Shown here: in pieces, positions 5,212-64,000 of the stretch | Layout: the number at the start of each line of letters is the position of its first letter | Position numbering within the stretch: the first letter of the stretch is position 1 | Assembly (NCBI GenBank): GCA_028583605.1 | Contig: CM053329.1 | Span: forward strand, 13,006,501 to 13,070,500 | DNA: 64,000 nucleotides | Direction: 5' to 3' | DNA from: Dastarcus helophoroides | Lineage: Eukaryota; Arthropoda; Insecta; Coleoptera; Bothrideridae | The notes under the pieces: model-generated | What the model was told of the DNA's origin: nothing | Seen by the model: only the letters and a program-made list of their open reading frames with translations | Databases searched by the model: none | Made by a program: the position numbers and the translations under genes

Positions 5212-5360
5212 AAACCTATTTTTTTTTTTTGGTGGAACGGCTGGTCTTTGGTTATCTTTAAAGATGATAGCTTGGCTGTCGAAACGCGTTAGAGGAACCT
5301 TTGTTGTGTTTTTAAACCTTTTCTGTTTCAGGGGGCAAGATTTGTACTTCAATTTCTAAA
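5212..5360. mobile_element. Penelope-type terminal fragments, head-to-head, with decayed ribozyme
   Basis: The left part (GGTGGAACGGCTGGTCTTTG through GGTTATCTTT) is the reversed 3' end of the Penelope unit seen at 63980-64000. It abuts a plus-strand piece beginning at the ribozyme region (GATGATAGCTTGGCTGTCG, GAAACGCGTTAGAG) and continuing through CCTTTGTTGTG and TTTCAGGGGGCAAG. The hammerhead core here is TTAAAGA instead of CTGAAGA, so it should not cleave. It is inserted in the A-rich interior of the hAT-type element. Confidence 0.7.
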
Positions 5361-6874
5361 ATGTTTAGACAAATTATAATTTTGTGAAAAATAGTAATAT
5401 TTTGAAAACAGAAATTGTAAAAAATTAAAAGCTTAAAAAGGAAACAGTCGAACTTTTTCAGAAGCTGAAGTTTTTCAGAGAAGAAGAAAATAAAAAAATG
5501 CATTTTTTCGGAGAAAATTAAATTTTGAGAATAAATTGAAATTTCAAGCACAAGACAAATTAAAAAAACTCCAAACCTTCACATAAATCTAATTTTAAGA
5601 AAATTGGTAAAATAATTTCGAAAAAAAAGAAAATGTCGATAAAACTTCCAGTTTCGTAAAAATTATTGAATTTTGAAAGAAGGTACCAAAATTTTTCAGA
5701 GAAAGTCAATTTTTAAGAAAAAATTAAATTTTGAGATTTGAAAATGGATTAATTTAGTTCGAAATAATAGTTGAAATTTTTGGAAAAAACCGAATTTTGA
5801 AAGAAAAAATATTTCGAAAAAATGAATTTAGCAACATTCTTAAAAAAGATGAAATTTAAAAGAAAACGTCGAATTTCGACAATAGATTGAAAGCCAGAAC
5901 AAATTTAAAACCTAACATTTTTAGACAAATATTAATTTTGTGGAAAAAATTGTACAATTTCGAAAAACCCCAAGTTTTTCATCGAAGGAGAAAATAAAAA
6001 TTTGCATTTTTTTCAGAGAAAGTTTAATTTTAAAAACAGGTTTGAAATTTAGAGAAGAAAACGAGTTAAATAAATCCAAATGTTCAGATAAATTCGAATT
6101 TTGATAGAATTATTAAAACAATTTCAAAAGTAAAGACAACATTGATACAACTTCTAGTTTCGAGAAAAATGTTGAACTTTGTAGAAAGGTCAAATGTTAA
6201 GAAAAAATCAAATTTTGAGATTCAGTTAAACATTATGAAATTTTACGAATTTCTTCAAAAAAAATCGCAGTTTGCGGAAATAAACAAATGCCGAATTTTT
6301 AAAGTCAAAATTAAAAAAAAAAACGAATTTTGCGAACCAAGTACCAATTTGTAGAAAATAGATCAAAGTTTAAATGTTTTGTAAAAGTCAATATTTGGGC
6401 AAAATGGCTTAATTTGAAAAAAGGACAAACTTTGAAAAGAATATACAAATTTCGAAAAAAGTGTTGAAGTGTTTCCCAGAGAAAGTCGAATTTTGAGATT
6501 AAGTCAAACATTTTCAATATATGTAGATAAATTTCGTTAAAAAAATTGCAGTTTCCATTAACAACAGAATGTTGAATTTTAAAAGTCGAAATTTCGAAAA
6601 AACTCCGAATTTTGCGAAACAAGTTTAAATTTCTAGAAAATAAATAAAAGTTTAAATGTTTGGTAAGTCAATTCTGGGGAACATGCCGAAATTTGGTAAA
6701 AGAGCGATTTTAAAAAGAATGTAGAAAGCTCTAGAAACTAAGCGCAATTTAGAACACAGTCGAATAAATATATTTTTGGAAAAAAGTGTTATTTGAGAAT
6801 ATATCTAAATTTCGAAAAAGGGAAACTTTGAAAAAAGATTGAAATCTTCAAAAACTATTTTACTTAACTTCTCC

Positions 6875-7124
6875 GAGTTGGATATACCAAACTAACGAGA
6901 TCTAACAAGATCGAAACCAATTTTTGGTTTCCAAACTTCGAATCTAATAAATGTTCAAACCTATTGGTCTGTGCATTAGAATCCTTGTCTTCTGGGAACT
7001 TTCCTAGAGAGCAACCGCTTCGCTAGGTAGCAGTGTTCCAACTGTTGGTAGTTCAGCCACATGATTCACTATAAACGCCTGGAGGGCTGCATGAATATGC
7101 AGTCTAGGTTGTATTCTACTTGCA
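6875..7124 (+). mobile_element. Ribozyme-bearing repeat (family 2), single copy A
   Basis: Shares with 22132-22700 and 52827-53198 the ordered blocks GAGTTGGATATACCAAAC, a hammerhead region, TCTGTGCATTAGAATCC, CAACCGCTTCGCTAGG, GTTGGTAGTTCAGC, GATTCACTATA and GGGCTGCATGAAT. The 6-mer TTCTCC directly flanks both ends (6869-6874 and 7125-7130) and may be a target duplication. No ORF. This copy is not in an inverted pair. Confidence 0.75.
6886..6928 (+). ncRNA. Hammerhead ribozyme, family 2, mutated
   Basis: Stem I is ACCAAA/TTTGGT, stem II GATC with loop TAACAA, then GAAA. The core reads CTAACGA instead of CTGACGA (the conserved G is lost) and stem III CCGG has become CCAA. It should therefore be inactive. 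Confidence 0.7.
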
Positions 7125-7589
7125 TTCTCCAATCACTTCAAATTTTTATTTTTTTATTAAAAAATCTTTTAGTAACTCGCATTAGAAAAGAGTAAATATT
7201 TTCCCAAATGGGCGAATTTTAAGAAGAAAGGAAGATTTGGGGTAAAAGTCTAATTTTAGGAACAAAATAGATATTAAAAAGAAGACTAATATAAAAAAGA
7301 GTTAAAAAAGTCGAAATTGCGAAAAAAAAGTCAAACTTTAAAGTAAAGGTCTAAATTTTGAGAAATAAAAGGTCTTTTGGGCTGAATATATTTTTGTTTA
7401 ACTACATGAGTCAAGGCGGATCTCTCTTTGTCCCATATATTGTCCTGTATCCGATTTAATTTTGAATTCTGTGGTACAGAAATAAAAATTTGTGGCTCTT
7501 TGAAATTCACGAAATCAATTTTTTTATTGCAGCTGGCCCTTTTGGTTTAAAAGTTTGCTGACCCCTGCCCTAAACAAAACTAAAACTCG

Positions 7590-21690: not shown

Positions 21691-22190
21691 TTTTGAAAAC
21701 TTCAAATTCTTATAACTTCGACTTTTCAAAAACTTCTCCTGTTCCTAAAAATTTTAATCATTTTTTTTAACAATCTGACATTTTCAATTGAGAATGTTAA
21801 AAATTTCAAACTAATTATATAAATAAAAATTCCAGACTTAACTAAAGTTCGACATTTAAGCTGGCCTTTTAAAAATTAGTATTTTTTAAGTCTAAGCTGA
21901 AAAGTTTCAAAAAAAAGTCGAAATTTCGAAAAATTTTCGAGTCTAAAACCTAAACAAAAATTTTGATAAAAAAGAACAAAAAGCAAAATTTTTGTTTTAA
22001 ATTTGAATTTTTACAAGTGTTTTTCGACATTTTGAATTCAACCGCAAAATGTCGAGTCATTTCGAGAAGAAACTTCAAAATATCTAATAAAAATTGTTTC
22101 TAAAGATTTTAGTTTAAAAATTTCAAACAAAGATTCTATTATAATGCACAGATCAATAGGTTTGAACATTTATTAGATTCGCAGTTGGAA

Positions 22191-22233
22191 ACCAAATACC
22201 GGTTTCGATCTTGTTAGATCTCGTCAGTTTGGT
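22191..22233 (-). ncRNA. Hammerhead ribozyme, family 2, canonical
   Basis: All core parts are present on the minus strand, in order: stem I 5' strand ACCAAA, core CTGACGA, stem II GATC/GATC with loop TAACAA, GAAA, stem III as the palindrome ACCGGT (with A15.1 and U16.1), cleavage triplet GTA, then stem I 3' strand TTTGGT. Stem I pairs over 6 bp. The stem III palindrome has no room for a loop, so cleavage probably needs a dimeric fold, as known for type I hammerheads of Penelope-like elements and animal retrozymes. Predicted cleavage falls between 22197 and 22196. Confidence 0.88.
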
Positions 22234-22567
22234 ATAGCCAACTCGAATGCTAATAAATGTTCCGACAAGTAAGCACTAAAACATTCACAGGCGTCAAGCC
22301 AGTGACTCTTTAGTACTACCACCTATTGGTCCATAGAGAAACTATGGCCATCGCCAACAATGTCGTATGCAAGAAGAATGCAACCTAGACTACAAATTCA
22401 TGCAGCCCTCCAGGCGTGTATAGTGAATCATAGGTAGCTGAACTACCAACAGTTGAAACACTGCCACCTAGCGAAGCGGTTGCTCTCTAGGAGAGTTCCC
22501 AGAAGACAAGGATTCTATAATGCACAGACCAATAGGTTTGAAAATTTATTAGATTCGCAGTTTGGAA

Positions 22568-22604
22568 ACCAAATACCGGTTTCGATCTTGTTAGATCTCG
22601 TCAG
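22568..22604 (-). ncRNA. Hammerhead ribozyme, family 2, missing the 5' half of stem I
   Basis: Core CTGACGA, GATC/GATC stem, GAAA, ACCGGT and the GTA site are intact, and TTTGGT follows, but the sequence 5' of CTGACGA is replaced by an inverted fragment, so stem I cannot form locally. Its cleavage site (22574|22573) lies 377 nt from that of 22191-22233. Confidence 0.8.
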
Positions 22605-23199
22605 TGTTTCAACTGTTGGTAGTTCAGCTACCTATGATTCACTATACACGCCTGGAGGAGGGCTGCATGAATTTGCAGTCTAGGTTGTATTCTTCTTGCA
22701 TTTCAAACAAAAGCAAAAACTTCGAATTTTCTAAGTTCGACTTTTCGAAAAATTCTTCTATTTCTAAAAATTTTAATCATTTTTTCAAGAATCTGACATT
22801 TAAAATTGAGAATGTTAAAAATTTTAAACTGATTGTATAAAAGGAAAGTTGTGACTTAACTAAAGTTCGACATTTAAGTTGGCCTTTTAAAAATCACTAT
22901 TTTTCAGTCAAAGCTGAAAAGTTTTCAAAAAACGTCAAAATTTAGAAGAATTTTCCAGTGTAAAACCTAAATAGAAATTTTGAAAAAAAAAGAACACAAA
23001 GCAAAATTTTGGTTTCAAATTTTAATTTTAACAAGTGTTTTTCGAAATTTTGAATTCAACGGCAAAATGTCGAGTCATTTCGAGAAAAACCTTCGAAATA
23101 TCTAAAAATGTTCCTGCAGATTTTGATTTAAACATTTTAAACTAAAGCAAAATCTTCGAGTTTAAAACCTGAATATTTAGAAGCTTATTTAAAAAAAAA

Positions 23200-25981: not shown

Positions 25982-26377
25982 TAGGGTGGTCCTTATTTGG
26001 GAAATGTTCGAATTTTTTTCCACGATAGTCCTAAATCGGTTCCAAATATATAAAAAAAAATTCATGCCAAGTTATAGCTCTTAATTTTAATATCAACCCG
26101 GCCCCCCCGATAGCCAAAGTTTTAAATGGAAATAACATAGGAAAAGTTCTGTTAATACTTTGGAATTTTTTATCCCATAAAACAATAAACATATCATGTC
26201 GACAAATAATTATTTTCATAGAAAATTGACCGCTCTACAAAAAAGGTCTCTTATGATTTTTGGCTAACTTGACTGGTTTAAAAGTTATTCGAGGTCAAAA
26301 TCAAAGTTCTAGTCAATCTAATGGTTTTTTTCGTTTTTACCATCATTTTATGATTCAAAAATGAAAAAAGGGTTATA
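25982..26377 (+). repeat. Left long TIR of the hAT-like element
   Basis: Complementary to 29338-29734. Contains ATATCATGTCGACAAATAAT and GTTCTAGTCAATCTAATGG. Confidence 0.85.
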
Positions 26378-26807
26378 ATTTTTAATCTTGATGATTTTTT
26401 TCCAGAAAAATTCCAAGGTGACCGTGACCCTAAAATAATAGTTACACTAATTTTTTTTTATTTTTGAACTGTCATAAGTTTCAACTATATTTCCAATTTC
26501 AAAATACACAAAATATTTTTGGCAAATTATTGAACGATTTTAATTTTGATTGATAAAAATATTGATACAATCTGGTTTCAAATTTAAATTTCAAGATAAA
26601 AACATTTCAGAAACTGATTATGCCGCCATCTATTAGATTTTACTTCAACTTTTCACATTACAATTTATTCTAAAGTACTCATAACCCATATTTATTATCT
26701 CAACTCTATTAAAATCGTTCACGAATATTTACTAATAGTTATGTTTTCTCGTTGTTTAATTAAATCCTTAAATTTCATCAATTCGATTTTAAAGTCATCA
26801 GACAAAT

Positions 26808-27351
26808 ATGGAACTATCACGTTTACGTCAAAACATCTTTTTAATTGGTGATGTTGACGTCCAAATAGTGGGTAATAAATTACCATCGAAATTGCAAGCT
26901 CTAAAAGTGTTCTTTTTTCATACACGTATTTTAAATACTTCTGTACCAGAAAGTATCGCTGCAGTAATTGATGAAATTATTGTGTTTTGGAAAAAAGCTC
27001 AAATTCCCGTTCAAGATATGCAAAGATGCCTAGATAAATTGAAAAAATTGTACGATGAGTGGCGCATACTTGTCAAACACAAAAATCGGAGTGACGTGGC
27101 TGTAAAAAAACAAAATGAATTTGTTTGTTCATTAAAAAAATTATTTGACATTGCACCATCAAATGTATTTGAAGTTATTGATGAAAATTCTAAAGAATTC
27201 TTAATTAATCAGAGATCAGAGGAACGAATTGGTTTTATTGCAAATATTAAAACAAAATATGATGACGATGATAATAATTCTAATAAATTAAACAAAAAAA
27301 CTCATTTTGAAAAACGAAAAAAAAAGAGTGATGAAGAAAAAGCATTATTGG
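26808..27351 (+). CDS. hAT-like transposase, exon 1 (N-terminal region)
   Basis: ATG at 26808 opens MELSRLRQNIFLIGDVDVQI. The region KLPSKLQALKVFFFHTRILN followed by a coiled, Lys-rich segment (about residues 60-120) matches the N-terminal part of a conserved family of uncharacterised arthropod/cnidarian transposase-like proteins, as I recall it; no named domain was seen. Unspliced reading stops at TGA 27359-27361, but a donor GGTAAAT at 27351/27352 would splice to the acceptor TTTAG at 27441-27443, a 92-bp intron. Confidence 0.7.
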
Positions 27352-27443
27352 GTAAATTATGAGAATCAAATAATCAATTGATTTTTTATTACTTATTCAC
27401 GTTCATATTTTATTCGTCATATTATTGTCCTTATTTGTTTTAG

Positions 27444-29195
27444 ACAAAAATGTTGAACTTTTATCTAGCCAGGGAAGTGCTCTATCTGCATCTAGTGGAG
27501 AAATATACTTTCCTACTACTGCCGGATCATCAGAATCAAAAAAAAACAAGAGGAAGTTATAATATTCTCAGTGATAGAGTTGTAGCTACTTTCGATCGAT
27601 GTAAAGTAAGTGACAGAGATGCTGTATTTATAATAACTGCTATCTGTCAATCACTTATTGATATAAACCTACTAGATGTGGATATTAACTCTTTGATTAT
27701 CAATCGATCATCTATTCGAAGACAACGACAAACTCTGCGAGAGTCAAAATCAATAGAAATAAAAAAACACTTCCAAGACTTGAATTTATCATCTATTGTT
27801 GTACACTGGGACGGAAAATTATTACCTAATTTGTTAAATACCGAAACCGTTCATCGATTACCAGTGATAATTACGTCAGAGGGCAAAGAAATTATGTTAG
27901 GTGTACCAACGAGTGAAGATGGGACTGGAAAGGCACAAGCTACTATTATTCACGAAACATTGCTGGATTGGGGATTCGACACTTCTGTCAAAGCGATATC
28001 CTGTGATACTACTGCTTCAAATTTAGGCATTCGAAATGGTGCTGTTGCATTACTGGAGAAATTATTAGAGAGAGATTTGTTATATCTTCCGTGTAGGCAT
28101 CACATTTTCGAAATTGTCCTAAGATATGTGTTCGAAGCTGTTTTTCCAAATACTGTTGGGCCAAATGTTCCACTTTTTATCAGATTTCAAAAGCAATGGG
28201 AAACTTTGAATAAACTGAATTACAAAACAGGATTAGATGATCCAAGAAATAAAAACGAGTTAACAGTAGAAAAAATTAGGTCTATAAAAACTTTTGCCAC
28301 TGAAGTTCTGACAACAAAGCTGCCTCGTGATGATTACAAAGAGTTTTTGGAGCTTACTCTAGTCTTCATTGGTGTTATCCCAGAAAAATTTAGTTTTCGT
28401 AAGCCAGGAGCTTGCCATCATGCACGGTGGATGGCAAAAGCTATTTACGTGCTGAAAATATACCTGTTTCGTGAACAGTTATCGTTGAAAAAAGGTGAAG
28501 ACAATAAACTTCGACAAATATGTGTTTTTGTGACAACTGTTTATGTTAAAGCTTGGTATTTATCATCTAATAGTGTAAAAGCTCCGTACCATGATCTACA
28601 ATTTATAAAAGAGCTACACAACTTTAAGGCGATCAACAGTAATCTTGCTACTGTAGCAATTAATAGATTTATGAATCATCTATGGTACTTATCGCCAGAG
28701 TTAGCGATCATCGCAATTTTCGATGAAGATGTTCCATTAGAAACGAAATTAAAAATTGTGGCTAAGCTGCATACAGAAGAAGACAAGATTTCAATTGATA
28801 TTATTCCGGAAGAAGAGCTGGATTATACTAGTGAAAAATGTAGCGTAAAACGCTTTCAAAGCAAGAATATAAACGATTTATTGTGCAACGATATCGATTT
28901 TTTTGTAACTGCAGAATCGATCAAATTTTTTGAAAGATTTGAGTTACAAACAGAATTTTTACAAATTCATCCTTCTGACTGGGCTGAAAATGAAAGCTAC
29001 AAAACTGCATTACGGTTTGTCGAAAAACTATGGGTTGTAAATGACTGTGCTGAGAGAGGAGTTAAACTAGTGCAAGATTTTTGTAAACATTATACCAAAG
29101 ATGAAAAACAAATGCAATTTGTATTACAATTAGTTAAAGATCATCGTCAAATGTTTCCTGATGCGCTAAAGAAAACTAATGTAACAACTTCATAA
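27444..29195 (+). CDS. hAT-like transposase, exon 2 (RNase H-fold catalytic region), one frameshift
   Basis: A 581-codon open frame (27450-29195). Candidate catalytic motifs are VVHWDGKLLP (first D), ISCDTTASNLG (second D, like the hAT DNAxNM region), LPCRHHIFEIVL (C(2)H motif) and, near the C-terminus, NDCAERGVKLVQDF (E, like the hAT ER motif). Spliced from exon 1, the frame would run DKNVELLSSQGSALS and stop early. One extra A in the nine-A run at 27538-27546 explains the mismatch with the main frame, so this copy is one indel from intact. No BED finger was seen. Function is inferred from motifs and TIR context. Confidence 0.7.
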   Translation, partial: TKMLNFYLAREVLYLHLVEKYTFLLLPDHQNQKKTRGSYNILSDRVVATFDRCKVSDRDAVFIITAICQSLIDINLLDVDINSLIINRSSIRRQRQTLRESKSIEIKKHFQDLNLSSIVVHWDGKLLPNLLNTETVHRLPVIITSEGKEIMLGVPTSEDGTGKAQATIIHETLLDWGFDTSVKAISCDTTASNLGIRNGAVALLEKLLERDLLYLPCRHHIFEIVLRYVFEAVFPNTVGPNVPLFIRFQKQWETLNKLNYKTGLDDPRNKNELTVEKIRSIKTFATEVLTTKLPRDDYKEFLELTLVFIGVIPEKFSFRKPGACHHARWMAKAIYVLKIYLFREQLSLKKGEDNKLRQICVFVTTVYVKAWYLSSNSVKAPYHDLQFIKELHNFKAINSNLATVAINRFMNHLWYLSPELAIIAIFDEDVPLETKLKIVAKLHTEEDKISIDIIPEEELDYTSEKCSVKRFQSKNINDLLCNDIDFFVTAESIKFFERFELQTEFLQIHPSDWAENESYKTALRFVEKLWVVNDCAERGVKLVQDFCKHYTKDEKQMQFVLQLVKDHRQMFPDALKKTNVTTS

Positions 29196-29337
29196 AAGTA
29201 TGTGATTAAAAAAAAAAAATGATAATATTGGTATTTTCTTTCAAGTCATTGAAATTTTAATAATAAATTTTTTCAATTCATTAATACTTTTCTTTCAGAG
29301 CATACGTCAAGGTAAGAAAATTCGTTTGAAATATAAA

Positions 29338-29734
29338 TTATAACTCTTTTTTCATTTTTGAATCATAAAATGACGATAAAAACGAAAAAAACCATTAGAT
29401 TGACTAGAACTTTCATTTTAACCTCGAATAACTTTTAAACCAGTCAAGTTAGCCAAAAATCATAAGAGACCTTTTTTGTAGAGCGGTAAATTTTCTATAA
29501 AAATAATTATTTGTCGACATGATATGTTTATTGGTTTATGGGATAAAAAATTCCAAAGTATTAACAGAACTTTTCCTATGTTATTTCCATTTAAAACTTT
29601 GGCTATCGGGGGGGCCGGGTTGATATTAAAATTAAGAGCTATAACTTGGCATGAATTTTTTTTTATATATTTGGAACCGATTTAGGACTATCGTGGAAAA
29701 AAATTCGAACATTTTCCAAATAAGGATCACCCTA
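29338..29734 (-). repeat. Right long TIR of the hAT-like element
   Basis: Inverted partner of 25982-26377, including a G-run GGGGGGGCCGGG matched by CCCGGCCCCCCC on the left. Confidence 0.85.
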
Positions 29735-37135: not shown

Positions 37136-37780
37136 CATCATAGCTTCTGACGTGTTTTCTTACGGGATTACTACTGGCAGGCAACAATTTTATTAAAATT
37201 TGCATACAACATGTTGTATGTTCTTTTCGTTCGTTGATTTAATCAACGTCTGAGGTAAAATAAGACTGATATTCTTTGATAACCAAAATAAGTAAATGAG
37301 GTTTCTTAAACAAAATTACTAATAATTCTTATGAAGAATATAACATAATAACTCTTTAAACATAACAATATAAGGAGTTGAAATAGGCCGCTAGACTGCG
37401 CTAAACAATATTTCAGTCTGTTGTGAAACTCTTGACGAGTTTTTTCTAACATCTAAACATCTAAACTGCGTCAAAGTAGGGGAATACGTTCAGCGGCCGT
37501 AGAAAACTATGAAAGGGACAATTCTTAACGTTTTATATGGACAATGAAAATTTTTTCTTATCTGTATGTAAAAAAGTTTACCTATTAAAAAATTGTATAA
37601 ATAAATAATAATAGTAATAATAAACTGGGTGTTTTAAAATAAGGTGCTCATACCTAAGAAAAAGCTAAACTTTTTCTTAATTTTCAAGACCCTCTAACTT
37701 ACCTGGAAATCTGCTAGAGTGCAGCCTGTCCCTGAAAAGGAAAAAAGGAATCTGACTAACAACTATTGCCCTATATCTTT
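37136..37780. other. Noncoding DNA
   Basis: AT-rich, not tandemly repetitive. No feature supported. Confidence 0.5.
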
Positions 37781-37789
37781 GTTTTCTCG

Positions 37790-38950
37790 CTGATAGATCG
37801 CTTCAGGTCATCGTCGGCGACATATCATCCGAGACATTCGCGATTTATGCAGGGATGCCTCAGGGGTCTGTCCTGTCTCGTACTCTGTTTCTGTTACACA
37901 TAAACAAACTCTTAGCTTCAAATTCCAATCCGATATACAGCTACGCAGATGATTGTAGCCTAGTGTCCGACAAATCAATGTCCGTCGCTGCTTCAGATCG
38001 ACTAAGGGGACAGCAGATACACATTTTTTTTGATGTAACGGACTGGTCCTTGGTTATCTTCAAAAATTGAAACACAGAACTTGTCCCCTGAAACCAAAAA
38101 AAATTAAAAAACACAACAAAGGTTGCTCTGAGAGCAACCTTTGTTGTGTTTTTTAATATTCTTGGTTTCAGGGGACAAGTTCTGTGTTTCAATTTTTTAG
38201 TAGATACACATGATTAATCGATATCTTGAAAACATTCTGGAATGGGGTAAAAAAATCTGGTCGAATTCAACAGTGGGGTTTTCTCTAAGAAAACATCAAG
38301 GGATAATGCAACAAACATACTAATGGACGGTAAAATCCTTCCGATGGGATCTAATCTATTTATCCTTGGAGTAAATGCGAGCACTAACTTCTCTTTGGAT
38401 GATCATGTGCGCGCCATTGCCAAATCTGCCCCTCAGAAGCTAGGCTTTCTTTTTAAAGCTAAAAAGTACTTTACATCTCATCAGCTATTAACACTAAACA
38501 AAGCTCAAGTTAGGCCAACACTAGAATACTGTTCTCATGTTTAAAGTTCAGCCTCAAAGTTCACTTTAGTTCTTTTGGATTCAGTTGAAAGAAGAACGAT
38601 TCGCCTAATTGATGATGAGAGTTTCACCGATTCTCTCAAAACACTAGAGCACAGGCGGATGGTTTGTAACTTATCTCTTTTCTACAAGTACTATCATGGG
38701 AGATGCTCGCAGGAACTAATATGATGGATCCCCCGAAGGGCAAGAGTTTTAAATCATACAACACAGTCGGCGACACCTGTGCGATCCAGCTTGACACAGT
38801 GAGGGCTCCTGTCTACGGAGACTCTTTTTTCTATAGAACTTCCAAGCTATGGAACTCGGAATTTATCCCAAAAATTACAACTTATCCTTGTTTAAGAAAG
38901 TGGTTCATCCTCATTTATCTTTGTTTCTGCATCCTCCTCACGGAGCTTTG
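37790..38950 (+). pseudogene. CR1-like reverse transcriptase C-terminal half
   Basis: DRSLQVIVGDISSETF, MPQGSVLSRTLFLLHIN (motif B) and IYSYADDCSLVSD (motif C, YADD) precede the insertion. After it come ILGVNASTNFSLDDHVRAIA, KLGFLFKAKKYFTSHQLLTL, VRPTLEYCSHV, SVERRTIRLIDDESFTDSL, LFYKYYHGRCSQE and FFYRTSKLWN. This order is typical of insect CR1/Jockey-like ORF2 C-termini. A TAA at 38542 and several frame changes show it is dead. Confidence 0.85.
38025..38201. mobile_element. Penelope-type head-to-head inverted pair with 10-bp target duplication
   Basis: Two copies of the Penelope terminal region (blocks CAACCTTTGTTGTGTTTTTT, TTGGTTTCAGGGGACAAGTT and CTGTGTTTCAATTTTT) face away from each other around a single G at 38130. 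The duplication AGATACACAT (38015-38024 and 38202-38211) brackets the pair. Both arms begin AGAGCAACC, the base directly after the predicted hammerhead cleavage point in intact copies. The left copy retains the far 3' end GATAACCAAGGACCAGTCC. The arms differ by a few bases and one indel. Confidence 0.88.
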
Positions 38951-46659: not shown

Positions 46660-49400
46660 ATCAATTTGAAAAAAAAATTATCACGAAATGTTGACTTTTC
46701 CTTCACTAAATCTCAAGATTAAAGTCAAAATTTCGACTTCAAAGTCGAAATTTGGAGTTTAAAGTCGAAAAAAGTAGAAATTTCAATTTTTAAATCAGAA
46801 TTTGAATTATTGATAACAATAAATAATGTTACAAAGGCGTAGAAAGAACATCGATTAAAAAAAAATGTTTCTCAAACTTCCGCTTTTATTTCAAGTTTTG
46901 ACTTTTTTCTCAAATTTCGACTTTTTTCTCAAAATTTCGAATTTTTTCTGGAAATTTCGACTTTTTTCTGAACATTTGAACTTTTTCGAAATGTTATAAA
47001 GGCGTAGAAAGGAAATCGATTTAAAAAAATGTTATCTTTAGAAATTTCGATTTTTTTTCTCAAATTTCGATTTTAAGCTCGAAATTTTGACTTTTTTCTC
47101 AAATTTCGACTTTTTTCTCAAAATTTCGAATTTTTTCTGGAAATTTCGACTTTTTTCTGAACATTTGAACTTTTTCGAAATGTTACAAAGGCGTAGAAAG
47201 GAAATCGATTTAAAAAAATGTTATCTTTAGAAATTTCGACTTTTTTTCTCAAATTTCGATTTTAAGCTCGAAATTTTGACTTTTATCTCAGAATTTTGAC
47301 TTTTTTTCTCAAAATTTCGACTTTTTTCTCAAAATTTTACCTTTTTTCTCAAATTTAGATTTTTTTAGAAATTTCGACCTTTTTCTTGAAACTTCGCTTC
47401 TTTTTCTCAAACTTTGACTTTTTTCTTGAAATTTTGACCTTAATATCGACTTTAAACACAAAATTTTGACTTTTTTTCTCAAAATTTCGACTTTTCTCGC
47501 AAATTTCGATTTTTGTTTCGAAATTTCAACTTTTTTCTCGAAATCTTAGCTATTTCCTCAAATTTCGATTTTTTCCTCATAATATTTTAAAATGTTGACC
47601 TTTTTCTCGAAATTTCGACCTTAAACTCAAAATTTCGACTCTAAACTCAAAATTTCGACTTTAAACTCAAAATTTCGGCTTTTCTTTCTCAAAATTTTGA
47701 TTTTTCTCGCAGATTGCGACTTTTTTTTTTAAATTTCAACTTTTTTTTGAAAATTTCGATTTTTTTTTCGCGAAATTTTGAAATTTTTCTCGAAATTTCG
47801 ATTTTTTTTCTCGAAATATCTCGAAATTTCGACTTTTTTCTCAAATTTCGATTTTTTTTCAAAATTTTGACCTTCCAATATTTTTCTCAAATTTTTGACT
47901 TTAAACTCAAAATTTCGACTTTTTTTCTCAAAATTTCGACCTTTCTCGCAAATTTCGATTTTGTTCTCAAAATCTCGACTTTTTTTTTAAGTTTAGACTT
48001 TGTTCTCGAAATATTTCGAAATTTCGACGCTCTTCTCAAATTTCGACTTTTTTCTCGAAATTTTTACTTTAATATCGAAATTTCGACATTTTTCTCGAAA
48101 TGTCGACTTTAAACTCACAATTTCGACTTTAAATTTAAAATTTCAACTTTTTTTTTCTCAAAATTTCGATTTTTTCTTAAATTTCGACTTTTTTCTCAAA
48201 ATTCAACTTTTTTTTCTGGAAATTTCGACTTTCTTCTGAAAATTTCGACTTTTTCGAAATGTTACAAAGGCGTAGGAAGAACATCAATTAAAAAAATTAA
48301 AGTCAAAATTTCGATTTTTTTTTCGAAATTTCAACTTTTTTTCTCGAAATTTAGACATTTTTCTGGAAGTTTTGAATTTAATATCAAAATTTTGACTGTT
48401 TTTCGAAATTTCGTCTTTTTTTTCTCAAAATTTCGACTTTGATTAAAATCTCGACTTTTTTCTTAAATTTCGACTTTTTTCTCGAAATATTTCAAAATTT
48501 CGACTATTTTTTCTCAAATCTTCGACTTTTTTCTCGAAATTGCGACTTTTTCCGCAAAGTTTCGTTTTTTTTTCCCAAATTTAAACTTTTTTCTCGAAAT
48601 TTTGACCTTAATATCGAAATTTCGACATTTTTCTGGAAATTTTGACTTTAGAGTCAAAATTTCCACTTTTTTTCTTGAAATTCGACTTTTTTCTCGAAAT
48701 TTCGATTTTTTTCGAAATCTCGACTTTTTTCTCAAATTTCGACTTTTTCTCCAAATATTTCAAAATTTCGACTTTTTCTCGAAATTTCGACATTTTTCTC
48801 ATATTTAGACTTTTTTCTAGAAATTTCTACCTTAATCTGAAAAGTTCGACTTTTTTCTCGAAAATTCGTTTTTTTTTTCTCTCAATTTACGACTTTTTTC
48901 TCAAATACCGTCTTTTTTCTCGAAATGTTGACCTTAATATCGAAATTTCGATATTTTTTTCGAAATTTCAACTTTAAACTCAAAATTTTGATCATGTTCT
49001 ACAAAAATTTTTTCTCGAAATTTCTACTTTAATCTGAAAAGTTCGACTTTTTTCTCGAAAATTCGTTTTTTTTTCTCTCAATTTAAGACTTTTTTCTCAA
49101 ATACCGACTTTTTTCTCGAAATGTTGACCTTAATATCTAAATTTCGACATTTTTTTCGAAATTTCGACTTTAAACTCAAAATTTTTTGATCATGTTCTAC
49201 AAAATTTTTTTCTCGAAATTTCGACTTTTTTCTCAAAATCCAACTTTTTTCTCGAAATTTTGATCTTAATCACGGTATTTCGATTTAAAACTCGAAATTG
49301 CGACTTTTCTCTCGAAATTTCAACTTTCTTCTCGAAATTTCAACTTTAATCTCGAAATTTCTAAAAAAAGACCAAAATTTGATGATTAAAAATAGCAATT
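46660..49400 (+). repeat. T-rich minisatellite inside the hAT-type element
   Basis: Hundreds of variable words of about 17-22 bp built from AAATTTCGACTTTTTTCTC. A longer marker containing ACAAAGGCGTAGAAAG recurs at about 46833, 46993, 47180 and 48260, showing a higher-order unit near 185 bp for 46993-47180. Phe/Lys/Ser-rich ORFs on both strands (47714-48977) are by-products. Confidence 0.88.
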
Positions 49401-49499
49401 ATTAAACGCACCCTACTACCAATTGTCAAGATTGTTGGGGAAGTAGAGTAGTGGGATGTAACTGTCATCTGCCTAATTTAACCATAGAGTGTGCGTATT

Positions 49500-50230
49500 A
49501 TAGAGCGACTTATTCCCGTAATTTCGGGAAAAAATTCAATATCAAAGTCGAAAATCCAAGATTAAAGTCGAAATTTCGACATTAATCTCGGAATTTTAGG
49601 AAAAGAGTAAAAATTTCAAGAAAAAAGCCGAATTTTCGAGAAAAAAGTTGAAATTTTGAGTGTAAAGACGAAATGTTGCCTTTAAAGCAGAAATTTCGAA
49701 TTTAAATTCGAAATTTCGAGACTAAAATCGAAATTTCAGGAAAAAAAGTCGAAATTTCGAAAAAAAAATCGAAATTTCGAGCAAAAATTCGAAGTCTCTA
49801 AAAATATATTTCAAATCAATGTCCTTTTTACGCTTTTGTAAAATGTCGACTTTGAACTGGAAATTTCGACTTTTTTCCCGAAAATTCTACTTTAACCTTA
49901 AAATTTCAAGAAAAAGGTCGAAATTTTGGGTAATAAGAAATTGAATTTACGGAACGTAGCATACTACTAAGTGTCAACATTAAATTGTAAAAGAGTTGGT
50001 GCTTAGAATATAGTCTTGTATTCTAAGGGTTAGTGGGGCTTAAATGTCATCTGCCTAACTTAACGATGGAATAAGAAATTTCGACTTATCCTGAAATTTC
50101 GTGAAAAAAAGTTGAAATTTCGAGATTAAAGCCGAAATTTCGACTTTATCTATGAAATTTCCTCAAAAAAGTCGAAATTTGGAAAATAAAGCAGAAATTT
50201 TCACTTTAATCTCTTAATTTCCAGTTTGAA
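49500..50230 (-). repeat. A-rich reverse-orientation minisatellite with a ~570-bp duplication
   Basis: Here the same words appear reversed (GTCGAAATTTCGAG). A non-repetitive block holding TGTCATCTGCCTAA occurs twice (about 49470 and 50048), so a ~570-bp segment is duplicated. The strand switch takes place near 49370-49500. Confidence 0.75.
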
Positions 50231-51091
50231 TCTCCCATTTCTAAATATATTTTTATAAATTAATGCCCAAAAATACATAAATAAAAAACAAAGCAGAAAA
50301 TGAATATGTATCGTATTTTTCTAATTAGGAATAAATAATTAAAATATAAATATTAGTCTTTAAAATTCAAGAAAAAACTTTCAAAATTAAACTTAGCCAA
50401 TTCATCATTATTATTCAATTTTTCTTTTATTAGAAATGTTTAGAAAATTCACCAATAAGGCGATTAATCGGAAATCGATCTTTCAGCACTCAATTTTATC
50501 GGGAATCGATACTTTTGCTCACGATTCGAATCGATCCAAAAATCGATTATTTTAAAAAGGAATCGACAACCCTAGTAGGCACATTTAAGGTTTTCTTTTG
50601 TGGAAGTTTGTCGCTTGATGGCTATAAAAGAACTGCTTACACCTCGTCTCTGTTGCTACCATCCCTTCACTCATCGATTGCCAATGCGCGAGTAAACAAT
50701 GATTGTATTGGTAAGTTTTCTATTTTTTTATTTGCGATATTTTTTTATCTTTTAATTTATTTAAAACTAAATTTTGATTTGCAGGTATTATTTTGTTGTA
50801 ATTATACATGCAGCTGTTTAATTCACCAATTTATCAATTTTCTAATCTCTTGTTAGTTATATTAAGAGATCATAGACTGTATTGTTGGTTTTTTTGTTTA
50901 AATTTTTCTTTGTTTGCAGATTGTACTCCAAGTTTTCACCAGTAGGGAATAATTTTGACATTTTGTATTCATGTTTTTTTTTATTGATGTTTTTTTGTGT
51001 ATTTTTTAATATTTCTAATTATTTACTATTAATTTTTAGATTGGTGTTATTTAGTGGCATGTCACAATTTCAAATAAATGTAATATAAACA

Positions 51092-51890: not shown

Positions 51891-52110
51891 TTTTTTTGGT
51901 GGACCGGACTGGTCCTTGGTTATCTTCAGAAATTGAAATACAAATCTTGTCCCCTAAAACCAAAGGTTAAAAAACACAACAGAGGTTGCTCTAGCGCGTT
52001 TCGATAGCCAGTATATCTCTGAAGAAGATAGCTTGGCTATCGAAACGCGTTAGAGCAACCTTTGTTTTGTTTTTAATCTTCCTTGGTTTCAGGGGACACG
52101 ATTTATATAT
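51891..52110. mobile_element. Penelope-type head-to-head pair with ribozyme
   Basis: The minus copy (51891-52010) runs from the ribozyme stem II 3' half (TGGCTATCGAAACGCG on the minus strand) to the 3' end GGACCAGTCCGG. The plus copy (52014-52110) starts with a complete hammerhead and continues TTTGTTTTGT, TTGGTTTCAGGGGACA. They are joined near 52010. No target duplication could be seen in the low-complexity flanks. Confidence 0.8.
52014..52055 (+). ncRNA. Hammerhead ribozyme of the Penelope family
   Basis: CTGAAGA (52019-52025), one extra A, stem II GATAGC/GCTATC with loop TTG, GAAA, CGCG (within palindrome ACGCGT), TT, then AGAG. Stem I is only TCT/AGA here. The extra base between core and stem II is shared by every Penelope copy in the window. 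Confidence 0.7.
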
Positions 52111-52814
52111 CAATTTTTAACTTTCTTTTCAAAATTTTGACCTTTTTTTTCAAATTCGAACACCGCATTTGAAGAAAAAAGTTTAAGAAAATGTCACAAC
52201 TGGTAAAAGTAAATTGCAAATTAACGAGAAACAAATTCAAATATTCGAAAAAAGTCAACATTTTAAGAAAAAGAATAAATTTGTATTTCTTAATAAATTT
52301 TCGAGTTTAAATATCAAGTTTAAACGCGGAATTTTGATACATTTTCCAATATTCGACCTTTTGCCAAGGAATTCAAAATTTTAAAATTGAAGTCAGACTT
52401 TTAATTTTTTTAGTAAATAAAATTTTAACTTTTACAAAAATTGTCTAAGAATTTTAGATTAAAATGTTAGTTGTTTTCGAACTTTTAGGCTAAAACTCAG
52501 TTTTTTATAAATTTAGAATTTTACCTAGTGCATTCCCAACTTCAAATTTTTAAAATTCTATAATACCAGAAGATTCTTAATATATTTCGTTTTTGTTTCA
52601 ATTTTGATTTTTTCGTCAAAATATTTAGTTTAACATTTAAAGGTTTACTTTGTTTCTAAATTTTCAACTTTAGAATCAAAATGTCAGCTTCATCTCGACT
52701 TTTTCCGAAGTATTGAGTTCTAAGGTCAAAAAAAAAGAATACATTTTTTACACTTATCTGAAAATTCTTACTTTAATCAGAAAATTTCAAAATTGTTTGA
52801 CCAAAATTTTAATC
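52111..52814. other. AT-rich simple sequence
   Basis: No feature besides degenerate A/T-rich words. Confidence 0.6.
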
Positions 52815-52882
52815 ACGAAATTTAAAGGATTCTAATGCACAGACCAATGTGTTTGAACAATTATTAGATTCGAAGTTTGGAA

Positions 52883-52925
52883 ACCAAGTACCGGTTTCGA
52901 TCTTGTGAGATCTCGTCAGTTTGGT
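52883..52925 (-). ncRNA. Hammerhead ribozyme, family 2 (near canonical)
   Basis: CTGACGA, GATC/GATC with loop TCACAA, GAAA, ACCGGT, GTA, then CTTGGT. A single stem I mismatch lies next to the cleavage site. The core is intact, so activity is possible. Confidence 0.82.
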
Positions 52926-52954
52926 ATATCCAACTCGAATGCTAACAAATACAT

Positions 52955-52997
52955 ACCAAACTGACGAGATCAAACAAGATCAAAACCGGTATTTGGG
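52955..52997 (+). ncRNA. Hammerhead ribozyme, family 2 (one core mutation)
   Basis: ACCAAA, CTGACGA, GATC/GATC with loop AAACAA, then AAAA instead of GAAA (conserved G12 lost), CCGG, TA, TTTGG. Probably inactive. Confidence 0.8.
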
Positions 52998-53260
52998 TTC
53001 CAAACTTCGAATCTAATAAATGTTCAAACTTATTGGTCTGTGCATTAGAATCCTTGACTTCTGGGAAATTTTTCCTAGAGAACAACCGCTTCGCTAGGTG
53101 GCAGTGTTTCAACTGTTGGCAGTTCAGCTACCTATGATTCACTATACACGCCTAAAGGGCTGCATGAATTTGTAGTCTAGGTTGCATTCTACGTGCATAC
53201 GAAATTTTAAATTTAATTTCAACATTTTGAACTAGTACATATCAAGTTTTACCAGGAACA

Positions 53261-59860: not shown

Positions 59861-59880
59861 TTTGTGGATTATCACTTGTT

Positions 59881-60105
59881 ATACCAATCTTGTCCTCTGA
59901 AACCAAGAAAGATAAAAATACAACAAAAGTTGCCATAACTCGTTTCAATAGCCAAGCCACCTTCTTTGGAGATATCAGTATGTTTCTGAAGATGATAGCT
60001 TGGCTATTAAAAAGCGTTAGAGCAATTTTTTAATCTTTCTTGATTTCAGGGGACAATTTTGGAAGATAACCAAGAACAAGTCATTCCACCAAAAAAACAG
60101 ATTTC
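59881..60105. mobile_element. Penelope-type head-to-head pair, decayed
   Basis: The minus copy 59881-59978 and plus copy 59980-60096 share TTTCTTGATTTCAGGGGACA-type blocks and ribozyme remnants. CACTTGTT occurs at 59873-59880 and 60106-60113, a tentative 8-bp duplication. The plus ribozyme (59983-60022) has CTGAAGA and GATAGC/GCTATT but AAAA and AGCG in place of GAAA and CGCG. Confidence 0.7.
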
Positions 60106-60747: not shown

Positions 60748-60978
60748 TTACAATACTCTGAATATTTTCGAAATCCTAGCGAAAAGGCAAGATGACCGAT
60801 GGTTTATTGAATCACATGGGATGGAAATATCAGCTTCAGATTCCGAGAATACTAGTGGCCGTACCATAAAACTAATTCCAGAAAAACAAACTTACATCTT
60901 ACAATCTAAAAACAAAATTTGCACTTTTTTAATATTTCAAGTTTACCCTAGAAATTCTCATCAACACATTTTTTTGTA
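60748..60978 (+). CDS. Unrecognised host gene, exon 4 (3' limit uncertain)
   Basis: Acceptor ATTTAGGGCAG ends at 60747. The frame joined to exon 3 reads RTYNTLNIFEILAKRQDDRW, FIESHGMEISASDSENTSGR and TIKLIPEKQTYILQ, and remains open to a TAA at 60976-60978, exactly where the Penelope palindrome begins. The last ~35 codons are AT-rich and may be intron; a donor such as GGCC|GTACC (60860) is possible. The complexity of the peptide contrasts with the surrounding simple sequence. Confidence 0.55.
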
Positions 60979-61041
60979 AAAATTGAAACACAGAACTTGT
61001 CCCCTGAAACCAAGAAAAATTAAAAAACACAACAAAGGTTG

Positions 61042-61082
61042 CTCTAACGCGTTTCGACAGCCAAGCTGTCATCTTCAGAGAG
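61042..61082 (-). ncRNA. Hammerhead ribozyme in the left Penelope arm
   Basis: Exact mirror of 63876-63916; see that entry for the parts. It lies 3' of the coding region, as ribozymes in Penelope pseudo-LTRs do. Confidence 0.78.
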
Positions 61083-61196
61083 AAACTAACATCTAATCTT
61101 AAAATTAACCCTTATATACTAAGAATATTCACTTCGTGCGTGATCGGCCGCACCCGAACGCGCATCCAATCATACACGTCGTTGTGTCACAATTTC

Positions 61197-62478
61197 TTAT
61201 CTATCAACCTTAACTATTTTTAACAGGGATGAATGGCCTAAAGGTCCAGCGCAACCATTCATAAGGTTGTTTCCGGCCTTATGGATGGCTAAGCTCTCAC
61301 ATGCATTTAACATATAATTCTTATTAACTACTCTTAATAATTTAATATCATTATCTATCCTATGATCTAATTCAAAAGCATGTCGAGCCACACTTGACTT
61401 CTCAGTTCTTCCGTACCTCAAATGAGCCAAATGTTCTTTGAGTCGGATTTTAAGAGATCGTCTAGTTTGTCCAACATACTTTTGAGGACAATCCCTACAT
61501 GAAATTTGGTAAATACCAGACTTATCTGTTTGCTCTACTTTATCCTTTAAACTACCTAAAAGCGAATTTAATTTTCCATTAGAAGTATAAATAACCCGAA
61601 AACCCTGATTTCGTAAAATTCCACCCAAACCCTGCGTGAGCGAGGGTTCAAATGGAAGTGAGACGAATTTAAAGTTTTTGTTTTCATCAGCTCGGAAAGT
61701 TGTAGTATTCACCAATTCACATTTAAATTTTTTCTTATTAATAATTTTATAAATAATATTTGGATCGAATCCATTAACTTCAGCTATATGTTTTATTGTC
61801 TTTAACTCCTTTCTGAATCTTTCCCTACTAAGAGGAAGACTCAGAAGGCGATGGGCAAGGAAGTTGAAGCTTGCCATTTTGTGCTGTATGCAATGGTTAG
61901 AATCGGAAGTTATATAGCGGAAGGTACTGGAATCTTTCCTATATACATCAAATTCTAATCTATTTTTATTCCTAATAACTAAAATGTCTAAAAATGGTAA
62001 AGCGGCTTCTTTCTCTAATTCTACAGTGAATTTAACTGTTGGAAAACGTGAATTTAAAACATCAATGAAATTATCTAAATTTTGATTTTTTGTGTCAAAA
62101 ATAGCAAAAATATCATCTACATATCTAATCCATACCCTAGGAAACAAACTACATTCATTTTTAAGACGACTTTCAAAAACACCCATGAAGAGCTCAGCCA
62201 TGAAAGGTGACAAAGGATTTCCCATGGCTGCTCCCTCAAGTTGTTCATAAAATTCGTTATTAATTTGGAAATAATTTTGATCCATACATATTTTCGTTAA
62301 TGAAATATATTCGTCAATAATTTTGCCTGAAAGGTTATTAGATTCCAACAGATCTCGAAGGTATAATAAAGTTTGAGGAATGGGTACACTGGGAAAGAGG
62401 GAAGAAACATCAAAAGAAACCAGCATTTCACCTTCCAACAACTCTTCATTCTGAATTTTCTGTACGAACTCTTGGGAA
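61197..62478 (-). CDS. Penelope-like reverse transcriptase / GIY-YIG endonuclease, 5'-truncated
   Basis: About 427 codons from SQEFVQKIQNEELLEGEMLV. RT motifs: VSFDVSSLFPSVPIPQT (motif A), GAAMGNPLSPFMAELFMG (B), RYVDDIFAIFD (C, catalytic YVDD), ALPFLDILVIRNKN (D/E), then the thumb (SNHCIQHKMASFNFLAHRLL). A linker leads to the C-terminal GIY-YIG nuclease: SGIYQISCRDCPQKYVGQT, RRSLKIRLKEHLAHLR and the distal NACESLAIHK with the expected Glu. This RT plus GIY-YIG architecture defines endonuclease-bearing Penelope-like elements. The N-terminal third is missing; the ORF reads through the palindrome centre into ~34 spurious residues. No internal stops, so the copy is young. Confidence 0.93.
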
Positions 62479-62479
62479 T

Positions 62480-63761
62480 TTCCCAAGAGTTCGTACAGAA
62501 AATTCAGAATGAAGAGTTGTTGGAAGGTGAAATGCTGGTTTCTTTTGATGTTTCTTCCCTCTTTCCCAGTGTACCCATTCCTCAAACTTTATTATACCTT
62601 CGAGATCTGTTGGAATCTAATAACCTTTCAGGCAAAATTATTGACGAATATATTTCATTAACGAAAATATGTATGGATCAAAATTATTTCCAAATTAATA
62701 ACGAATTTTATGAACAACTTGAGGGAGCAGCCATGGGAAATCCTTTGTCACCTTTCATGGCTGAGCTCTTCATGGGTGTTTTTGAAAGTCGTCTTAAAAA
62801 TGAATGTAGTTTGTTTCCTAGGGTATGGATTAGATATGTAGATGATATTTTTGCTATTTTTGACACAAAAAATCAAAATTTAGATAATTTCATTGATGTT
62901 TTAAATTCACGTTTTCCAACAGTTAAATTCACTGTAGAATTAGAGAAAGAAGCCGCTTTACCATTTTTAGACATTTTAGTTATTAGGAATAAAAATAGAT
63001 TAGAATTTGATGTATATAGGAAAGATTCCAGTACCTTCCGCTATATAACTTCCGATTCTAACCATTGCATACAGCACAAAATGGCAAGCTTCAACTTCCT
63101 TGCCCATCGCCTTCTGAGTCTTCCTCTTAGTAGGGAAAGATTCAGAAAGGAGTTAAAGACAATAAAACATATAGCTGAAGTTAATGGATTCGATCCAAAT
63201 ATTATTTATAAAATTATTAATAAGAAAAAATTTAAATGTGAATTGGTGAATACTACAACTTTCCGAGCTGATGAAAACAAAAACTTTAAATTCGTCTCAC
63301 TTCCATTTGAACCCTCGCTCACGCAGGGTTTGGGTGGAATTTTACGAAATCAGGGTTTTCGGGTTATTTATACTTCTAATGGAAAATTAAATTCGCTTTT
63401 AGGTAGTTTAAAGGATAAAGTAGAGCAAACAGATAAGTCTGGTATTTACCAAATTTCATGTAGGGATTGTCCTCAAAAGTATGTTGGACAAACTAGACGA
63501 TCTCTTAAAATCCGACTCAAAGAACATTTGGCTCATTTGAGGTACGGAAGAACTGAGAAGTCAAGTGTGGCTCGACATGCTTTTGAATTAGATCATAGGA
63601 TAGATAATGATATTAAATTATTAAGAGTAGTTAATAAGAATTATATGTTAAATGCATGTGAGAGCTTAGCCATCCATAAGGCCGGAAACAACCTTATGAA
63701 TGGTTGCGCTGGACCTTTAGGCCATTCATCCCTGTTAAAAATAGTTAAGGTTGATAGATAA
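62480..63761 (+). CDS. Penelope-like reverse transcriptase / GIY-YIG endonuclease, inverted twin
   Basis: Same protein as 61197-62478 with the same 5' truncation point. The only difference is in the fused residue at the junction (Ile here, Asn in the twin), which results from the odd-numbered centre. The TAG stop at 63759-63761 is followed by a ~115-nt stretch before the hammerhead (63876). Confidence 0.93.
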
Positions 63762-63875
63762 GAAATTGTGACACAACGACGTGTATGATTGGATGCGCGT
63801 TCGGGTGCGGCCGATCACGCACGAAGTGAATATTCTTAGTATATAAGGGTTAATTTTAAGATTAGATGTTAGTTT

Positions 63876-63916
63876 CTCTCTGAAGATGACAGCTTGGCTG
63901 TCGAAACGCGTTAGAG
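63876..63916 (+). ncRNA. Hammerhead ribozyme in the right Penelope arm
   Basis: Stem I CTCT/AGAG (63876-63879 with 63913-63916, extended by GTT/AAC after a mismatch), core CTGAAGA, one extra T, stem II GACAGC/GCTGTC with loop TTG, GAAA, stem III palindrome ACGCGT, cleavage triplet GTT. Hammerheads with tiny palindromic stem III are established in Penelope-like elements. The extra base after CTGAAGA departs from the consensus and needs testing. Confidence 0.78.
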
Positions 63917-64000
63917 CAACCTTTGTTGTGTTTTTTAATTTTTCTTGGTTTCAGGGGACAAGTTCTGTGTTTCAATTTTTGAAGATAACCAAGGACCAGT
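63917..64000 (+). mobile_element. Penelope 3' terminal region (runs off the window)
   Basis: CAACCTTTGTTGTGTTTTTT, TTGGTTTCAGGGGACAAGTT and GATAACCAAGGACCAGT. Other copies continue CCGTTCCACC plus A-run (e.g. 53405), so only ~20 bp of the element lie beyond the window. Confidence 0.85.

Follow-up and report, generated by a model that had tools for sequence, protein, structure and literature searches.

The window analysed here, a 64,000-nt stretch of Dastarcus helophoroides DNA (contig CM053329.1, positions 13,006,501 to 13,070,500), contains close to its 38 kb position two copies of a repeat arranged head to head (38025-38129 on the minus strand, 38131-38197 on the plus strand), parted by one G (Table 1). 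Both arms open with AGAGCAACC, and the 18-mer read outward from the G at 38130 is AGAGCAACCTTTGTTGTG, which occurs with at most three mismatches eight times in the window, including both of these arms, where shuffling leads to an expectation of 0.03. Element positions are numbered such that 0 is the first base after the predicted hammerhead cut; in this numbering both arms stop at exactly 0, their junction has zero overlap, and the base before AGAG is matched by neither arm. The inverted arrangement with identical openings around a single G is what the original prediction had described, and its two further points, that AGAG directly follows GTT in intact copies (seen at 63913 on the plus strand and 61045 on the minus strand) and that the pair lies between the copies of a perfect 10-bp duplication (AGATACACAT), are likewise borne out by the sequence. 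The account of the pair at 38025..38201 needs two corrections: the arms are unequal, since the left one is 37 nt longer, and the TAGT at the right edge lies outside of the right arm. The arms also differ from one another at several positions. A match of the pair to the Rfam family MIR9563, found on both strands below the cut-off, is accounted for by the inverted repeat and was rejected.

The pair interrupts a reverse-transcriptase reading frame, for which the original prediction had proposed a CR1-like identity; the analysis confirms a reverse transcriptase at the level of the domain. The interrupted frame (37756-38067) matches Pfam RVT_1 with an E value of 2.6e-8, and the second piece (38251-38541) has no Pfam match. 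With the flanks joined, the empty site translates free of stops as ...VAASDRLRGQQIHMINRYLENILEWG..., and excision of the insert with one copy of the duplication restores the reverse-transcriptase frame ...SVAASDRLRGQQIHMINRYLENILEWG...; the pair therefore entered as one unit. As a check on chance, places were drawn at random within the window, and 740 of 200,000 had a 10-mer in common with another place at a distance of 187 ± 4 bases.

Table 1. Features of the 38 kb pair, its target and the related copies in the window.
Feature	Position	Strand	Basis
5' part of interrupted reverse-transcriptase frame (target)	37756..38024	+	frame restored without insert
Target site duplication, copy 1, AGATACACAT	38015..38024	+	
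37-nt "tail" at 3' end of left arm, element +68..+104, on that arm only	38025..38061	-	
Left arm body, element +0..+67, 5' end AGAG at 38129	38062..38129	-	
Lone central G, templated by neither arm (T precedes AGAG in intact copies)	38130..38130	.	
Right arm, element +0..+67, tail absent, 5' end AGAG at 38131	38131..38197	+	
TAGT separating right arm from second duplication copy	38198..38201	+	
Target site duplication, copy 2, AGATACACAT	38202..38211	+	
Target reading frame resumes after insert	38212..38260	+	empty-site translation
Mirror copy of putative hammerhead; predicted cut between 61046 and 61045	61042..61082	-	sequence motif
Partial Penelope-like ORF (RT + GIY-YIG), upstream of intact pLTR copy	62373..63761	+	domain matches
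Intact putative hammerhead; predicted cut between 63912 and 63913	63876..63916	+	sequence motif

The Penelope-like family and its predicted hammerhead

Upstream of an intact copy of the repeat, the ORF at 62373-63761 contains both a reverse transcriptase (RVT_1, E = 7.3e-12) and a GIY-YIG domain (E = 2.2e-5) in a single reading frame, and the repeat therefore belongs to an endonuclease-bearing Penelope-like element. Homologues of this ORF, 120 of them listed from a total of 1,062, are 40-62% identical to it, and the named ones come mostly from insects, beetles first. In addition to the one-frame RT and GIY-YIG domains, the family has further hallmarks of Penelope-like elements: an optional, one-sided pLTR tail of 30-40 nt, short duplications, and copies placed head to head. 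The 38 kb insert is a 5'-end-only ("solo pLTR") insertion of this abundant element.

Further head-to-head pairs of the family, each with a tail on one side, are found at 51891-52118, 5223-5361 and 59880-60100. The window also holds a 3,003-bp palindrome (60978-63980) made of two 1,501-bp Penelope arms with RT and GIY-YIG frames, which are identical save for the centre base; only the right arm has a tail, inside which the window ends. A very recent insertion, gene conversion or an assembly effect could each have produced this palindrome.

In the intact copies at 63913 (+) and 61045 (-), AGAG is preceded by CTCT-CTGAAGA-T-GACAGC-TTG-GCTGTC-GAAACGCGTT. The parts of a hammerhead can be read from this stretch, with CTCT/AGAG as stem I, CTGAAGA and GAA as the core, GACAGC/GCTGTC as stem II, and GTT at the cut. 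We take the motif to be a minimal type I hammerhead, by the general rules for hammerheads: CUGANGA, GAA, a UH cut site and stems I and II are all present. The description given in the available part of PMC11167929 was also used for this assignment. The repeat is accordingly predicted, from sequence, to carry such a ribozyme, with the cut just before AGAG. According to the available portions of two accounts (PMC7761336, PMC6155905), which refer to Cervera and de la Pena 2014 and Lunse 2017, the minimal type I hammerheads of Penelope-like elements have a CUGANGA and GAA core, a short stem I and a nearly absent stem III, and the present motif shares all of these traits.

Pairing was compared in 75 distinct full-length copies, all chosen beforehand because they matched at 6 or more of 9 positions around the cut. 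Every pair of stems I and II can form in 58 to 74 copies, and the core positions are kept in 65 to 75. The stem II pair -23/-13 is C-G in 34 copies, T-A in 32 and T-G in 6. A search against Rfam left the site unmatched even at E values up to 5, possibly because stem III is nearly absent, and the minimum free energy fold of the single strand retains stem II and prefers other pairings elsewhere. An ATG at stem II lies 27 nt before the predicted cut; the 38-residue translation from it has no visible match to the N termini of four homologues.

The window also holds a second repeat family, with members at 6874-7125, 22127-22702 and 52825-53206, that matches Rfam Hammerhead_HH9 below threshold (best 36 bits, gathering 52) and is also partly arranged head to head.

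Tails, duplications and 5' ends in the sampled copies

The family is very abundant. The 14-mer TTTCAGGGGACAAG (element +36 to +49) has 13,134 forward and 12,770 reverse exact matches (25,904 altogether) in the 539-Mb genome, and the same 14-mer read backwards, used as a control, has 0 and 2. Since this 14-mer sits far from the element's ends, searching with it as an anchor does not select for the position of the 5' end. We used 100 listed TTTCAGGGGACAAG places on the plus strand of one contig (C1, 0.26-1.80 Mb), 30 with 3 kb of sequence and the remainder with about 0.6-1.5 kb. To these were added 40 "blind" stretches of about 2.5-3 kb (L119-L158) from dense parts of the same contig, their content unseen when chosen, which fall between the anchored places, so that the whole sample represents one end of one chromosome. 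It contains 263 distinct copies reaching +50 and 71 head-to-head pairs in which both outer ends reach +60; the pairs hold 142 of the copies, and 121 lie outside pairs. The counts of 5' ends exclude the window copies and also a first sample (L001-L028), because the query used for the latter contained AGAG and favoured complete copies. At about 538-558 kb of the same contig (L044-L053), the Penelope pLTR is part of a tandemly arrayed unit of about 650 bp, and such arrays could inflate simple copy counts.

The 3' ends fall into two classes, with 225 of the 263 copies ending either at +62 to +76 (111) or at +101 to +105 (114), the longer class being bounded by the end of the query at +105. Within pairs, these classes are combined in a regular way: exactly one arm has the tail in 59 of 71 pairs, both arms have it in 8, and neither in 4. 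When the labels are shuffled, the mean number of one-tail pairs is 35.7 and the maximum 51, and none of 20,000 trials reaches 59. The rule was already visible in the first 56 pairs (49 mixed), is weaker in the blind stretches (9 of 14 pairs) than in the whole sample, and is followed by the 38 kb pair. Duplications of at least 7 bp flank 27 of the 71 pairs (control mean 2.0, maximum 6). The most common length is 12 bp (8 pairs), and the 38 kb pair has 10. A search of the sampled pairs for duplications of at least 6 bp detected none in 42 of 71, which age or deletion of the target may explain. Together with the restored target frame, the one-tail and duplication counts uphold the earlier claim that the 38 kb pair was inserted as a unit.

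The 5' ends are most frequent well upstream of the predicted cut, with 84 of 263 copies starting at -44 to -36 and 97 at or upstream of -35. This main peak probably represents the 5' end of the uncleaved RNA, and most templates would therefore have been uncleaved. At the predicted cut itself there is an additional excess: 20 copies start at 0 to +3 where 6.3 are expected (3.2 times background, P = 1e-5), and 7 start at exactly 0 where 1.6 are expected (P = 0.001), based on the density of ends at -33 to -5 and +5 to +45. No other 4-nt bin outside of the main peak is as high. The histogram of 5' ends had been proposed along with the original prediction, which anticipated a sharp peak at AGAG; in the 263 sampled copies an excess is present there, but it is not a sharp main peak, which instead lies about 42 nt upstream.

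The excess at 0 to +3 persists when pairs with overlapping junctions are dropped (15 of 207 copies, 4.5 expected). Sorted by identity to the query, such ends are found in 8 of the 71 copies with at least 93%, in 9 of the 105 with 88-93% and in 2 of the 81 with less than 88%, these classes covering the 257 copies collected prior to adding the last four places. Removal of copies with look-alike flanks leaves 156 of 203, with 14 ends at 0 to +3 (3.8 expected) and 4 at exactly 0 (1.0 expected); this filter is too strict, because partner arms are dropped as well. Three of the 20 copies at 0 to +3 (L056, L061 and L159) can be read as internal deletions of full-length copies, and within the same group L110 and L117 look related, as do both copies of L043. 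The blind stretches have 2 of 51 copies ending at -3 to +3, versus 25 of 206 in the anchored places, and the first 20 of these stretches have none in 34. The bin at +27 to +30 nearly matches that at the cut, with 16 of 263 copies. When family members instead of the window copy serve as queries, part of this second excess shifts to +24 to +26, so that a T/C difference and the T-run may have created some of it through the alignment; it may also reflect a real stop.

The two arms of a pair can be compared directly. Where one arm ends at 0 to +3, the partner runs beyond -3 in 5 of 10 cases (81 of 142 for arms overall), and a single cleaved RNA cannot have been the template of both arms there. The tendency of both arms to end at or beyond a given threshold is strong for thresholds between -8 and +24, with an odds ratio of 8.6 (P = 7e-5) at 0. 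Between -32 and -12 it is weak or absent (odds ratios of 0.8 to 2.4, with P about 0.1 or higher), and for thresholds above +24 it is mostly non-significant. We do not use this association as proof of a shared cleaved RNA, because it is driven mostly by pairs in which both arms end beyond +3, was found post hoc over 18 thresholds, and is absent in the pairs with an arm at 0 to +3. Overall, an excess of 5' ends exists at the cleavage site but constitutes a minor mode, and cleaved RNA was probably a minority template.

Three pairs (L016, L024 and L003) have fillers at their junctions that were apparently copied from nearby element sequence. We take these fillers to resemble the products of polymerase-theta end joining.

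Proposed priming on both strands and the alternatives

The closest biochemical parallel is Poseidon of Anolis carolinensis (PAc). As described in the available part of PMC11167929, the PAc protein cuts and extends both strands in vitro, and copying of the RNA begins at two neighbouring internal sites, the tail being the stretch between them. PAc and the present element have in common a protein with RT and GIY-YIG domains and a minimal hammerhead; the cut of the PAc ribozyme lies 26 nt beyond a start codon located at stem II, and here the distance from an ATG is 27 nt. The sampled pairs look like genomic products of such a reaction, with each strand primed at a different start site, and their one-tail composition and duplications fit a single break at which both strands act as primers and the reverse transcriptase uses two start sites.

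Borrowing the enzymology from this in vitro study, we infer the following course for the 38 kb pair. The element enzyme would cut the two target strands at points some 10 bases from each other, and each free 3' end would prime reverse transcription inside the element RNA, near the RNA 5' end. A start at the distal site would yield the tailed arm and a start at the proximal site the tail-less arm, with each reverse transcriptase running towards the RNA 5' end. The RNA of this insertion would most likely have been cut by its own hammerhead, such that both cDNAs stop at the new 5' end AGAG, and the facing cDNA ends would then be joined, with one extra G, by host end joining. We consider two-strand priming combined with the copying of hammerhead-cleaved RNA to be the best explanation of the pair, and give it about an even chance of being right. 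If each cDNA ran off a cleaved 5' end, the stop of both arms at 0 would be explained directly, and we regard this component as similarly balanced between true and false.

The original prediction held that self-cleaved RNA had been copied to its very end on both sides of one target break. Two-sided copying at a single break is well supported by the tail and duplication counts (59/71 and 27/71). Cleaved RNA as the template is possible and gains statistical support from the ends at 0 to +3 (20 of 263, versus 6.3), but is not the main mode of insertion: the main peak lies upstream, the bin at +27 to +30 holds 16 copies, and 5 of 10 partner arms pass the site. A more specific version, in which one RNA is copied by two reverse transcriptases of one complex at adjacent sites, one primed by each strand of a single break, and the hammerhead cut sets the shared 5' end, is in our estimation rather doubtful. 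If it is true, the pair preserves in the genome a fossil of the ribozyme at work in vivo, and the single tail of each pair is the footprint of a one-RNA, two-primer complex.

Both arms might instead derive from uncleaved RNA with its 5' end near -42, the AGAG ends being coincidental and set by incomplete copying, by pausing of the reverse transcriptase at ribozyme stem I, or by trimming during end joining. The 5' ends are in fact spread over the whole arm at about 1.6 per nt in the 263 copies, with the additional bin of 16 at +27 to +30, and in so large a family a pair with both arms at 0 can arise by chance. Overlapping junctions, found in 29 of 76 listed pairs, are also in line with uncleaved templates, as are the mirror-symmetric pairs that in some cases meet at palindromic overlaps (GC at +3, AGCT at -22) and the partner arms of ends at 0 to +3, half of which (5 of 10) pass the cleavage site. 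What speaks against coincidence is that the bin at 0 to +3 stands at 3.2 times background, tops all others outside the main peak, and remains in excess without the overlapping junctions; the window pair itself has an overlap-free junction with both arms at exactly 0. We judge that uncleaved RNA has a considerable chance of being the correct source, although one somewhat short of even.

Two further explanations account for the inverted symmetry in other ways. A single cDNA could fold back and prime its own second copy, giving a palindrome, which is the published reading of the head-to-head Penelope palindromes of the rotifer Adineta vaga (PMC3846280, available part) and would suit the palindrome at 60978-63980, whose arms are identical save for the centre base. 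Self-priming predicts equal arms, however, and in a wider set of one-tail pairs only 7 of 68 have equal 5' ends, for which reason priming on both strands is preferred. The combination of one tailed and one tail-less arm in 59 of 71 sampled pairs also argues against self-priming, as do the several positions at which the 38 kb arms differ; the 5' ends of these arms do coincide, unlike their 3' ends. We regard self-priming as improbable for this pair. A DNA-transposon MITE of the fold-back type, with inverted repeats at its termini and a duplication of about 10 bp, would provide both the inverted symmetry and the 10-bp duplication. The outer ends are not inverted repeats, however, in that 37 extra bases occur on one side only, and 59 of 71 pairs are likewise one-tailed; in addition, the inner ends of the arms are variable, and the intact relative continues into the RT and GIY-YIG frame. 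A MITE origin is therefore very improbable.

Two-strand priming from partly cleaved templates can be set against what is described for related elements. In the available part of PMC3846280, the rotifer Penelope elements have head-to-head inverted pLTRs, one with an optional 31-bp tail, target duplications of 9-10 bp, and microhomology at a junction. This anatomy is shared with the present pairs, but is read there as self-priming, and the word "hammerhead" does not occur in the main text of that paper. Compared with the rotifer elements, the many short pairs found here allow the one-tail rule, the unequal arms and the sub-peak at the hammerhead site to be counted. For PAc, the available part of PMC11167929 reports that insertion in vitro needed no ribozyme cleavage and that no RNA-seq reads began or ended at the hammerhead site; unlike those data, the genomic copies examined here suggest that cleaved RNA was the template in a minority of insertions. 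A 2020 account (PMC7761336, in its available part) calls the in vivo activity and role of the Penelope hammerhead "still a mystery", and the 5' end data bear on both. A literature search that covered titles and the beginnings of abstracts, together with the papers or passages cited here by PMC identifier, yielded no description of genomic Penelope copies whose 5' ends lie at the hammerhead cut.

The mode of insertion of Penelope-like elements and the in vivo role of their hammerheads are treated as open questions in the cited papers, and both can be approached by counting in a genome that holds thousands of short copies. The rule that each break receives one tailed and one tail-less arm places constraints on the enzyme complex, and the distribution of 5' ends reveals which forms of the RNA served as templates. 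A sub-peak that held at single-base resolution would be evidence for reverse transcription of ribozyme-cut RNA in vivo, although the PAc study found cleavage unnecessary in vitro.

The window contains two other repeats of interest. A 403-bp inverted repeat, 97% identical between its copies at 25982-26384 and 29332-29734, flanks two reading frames, one of 184 aa and one of 581 aa, and the longer frame has no Pfam match; the whole unit (25982-29734) is possibly a DNA transposon. At 46690-50240 lies about 3.5 kb of a diverged satellite, with a unit of about 20 bp built on AAATTTCGACTTTTTTCTC and present on both strands.
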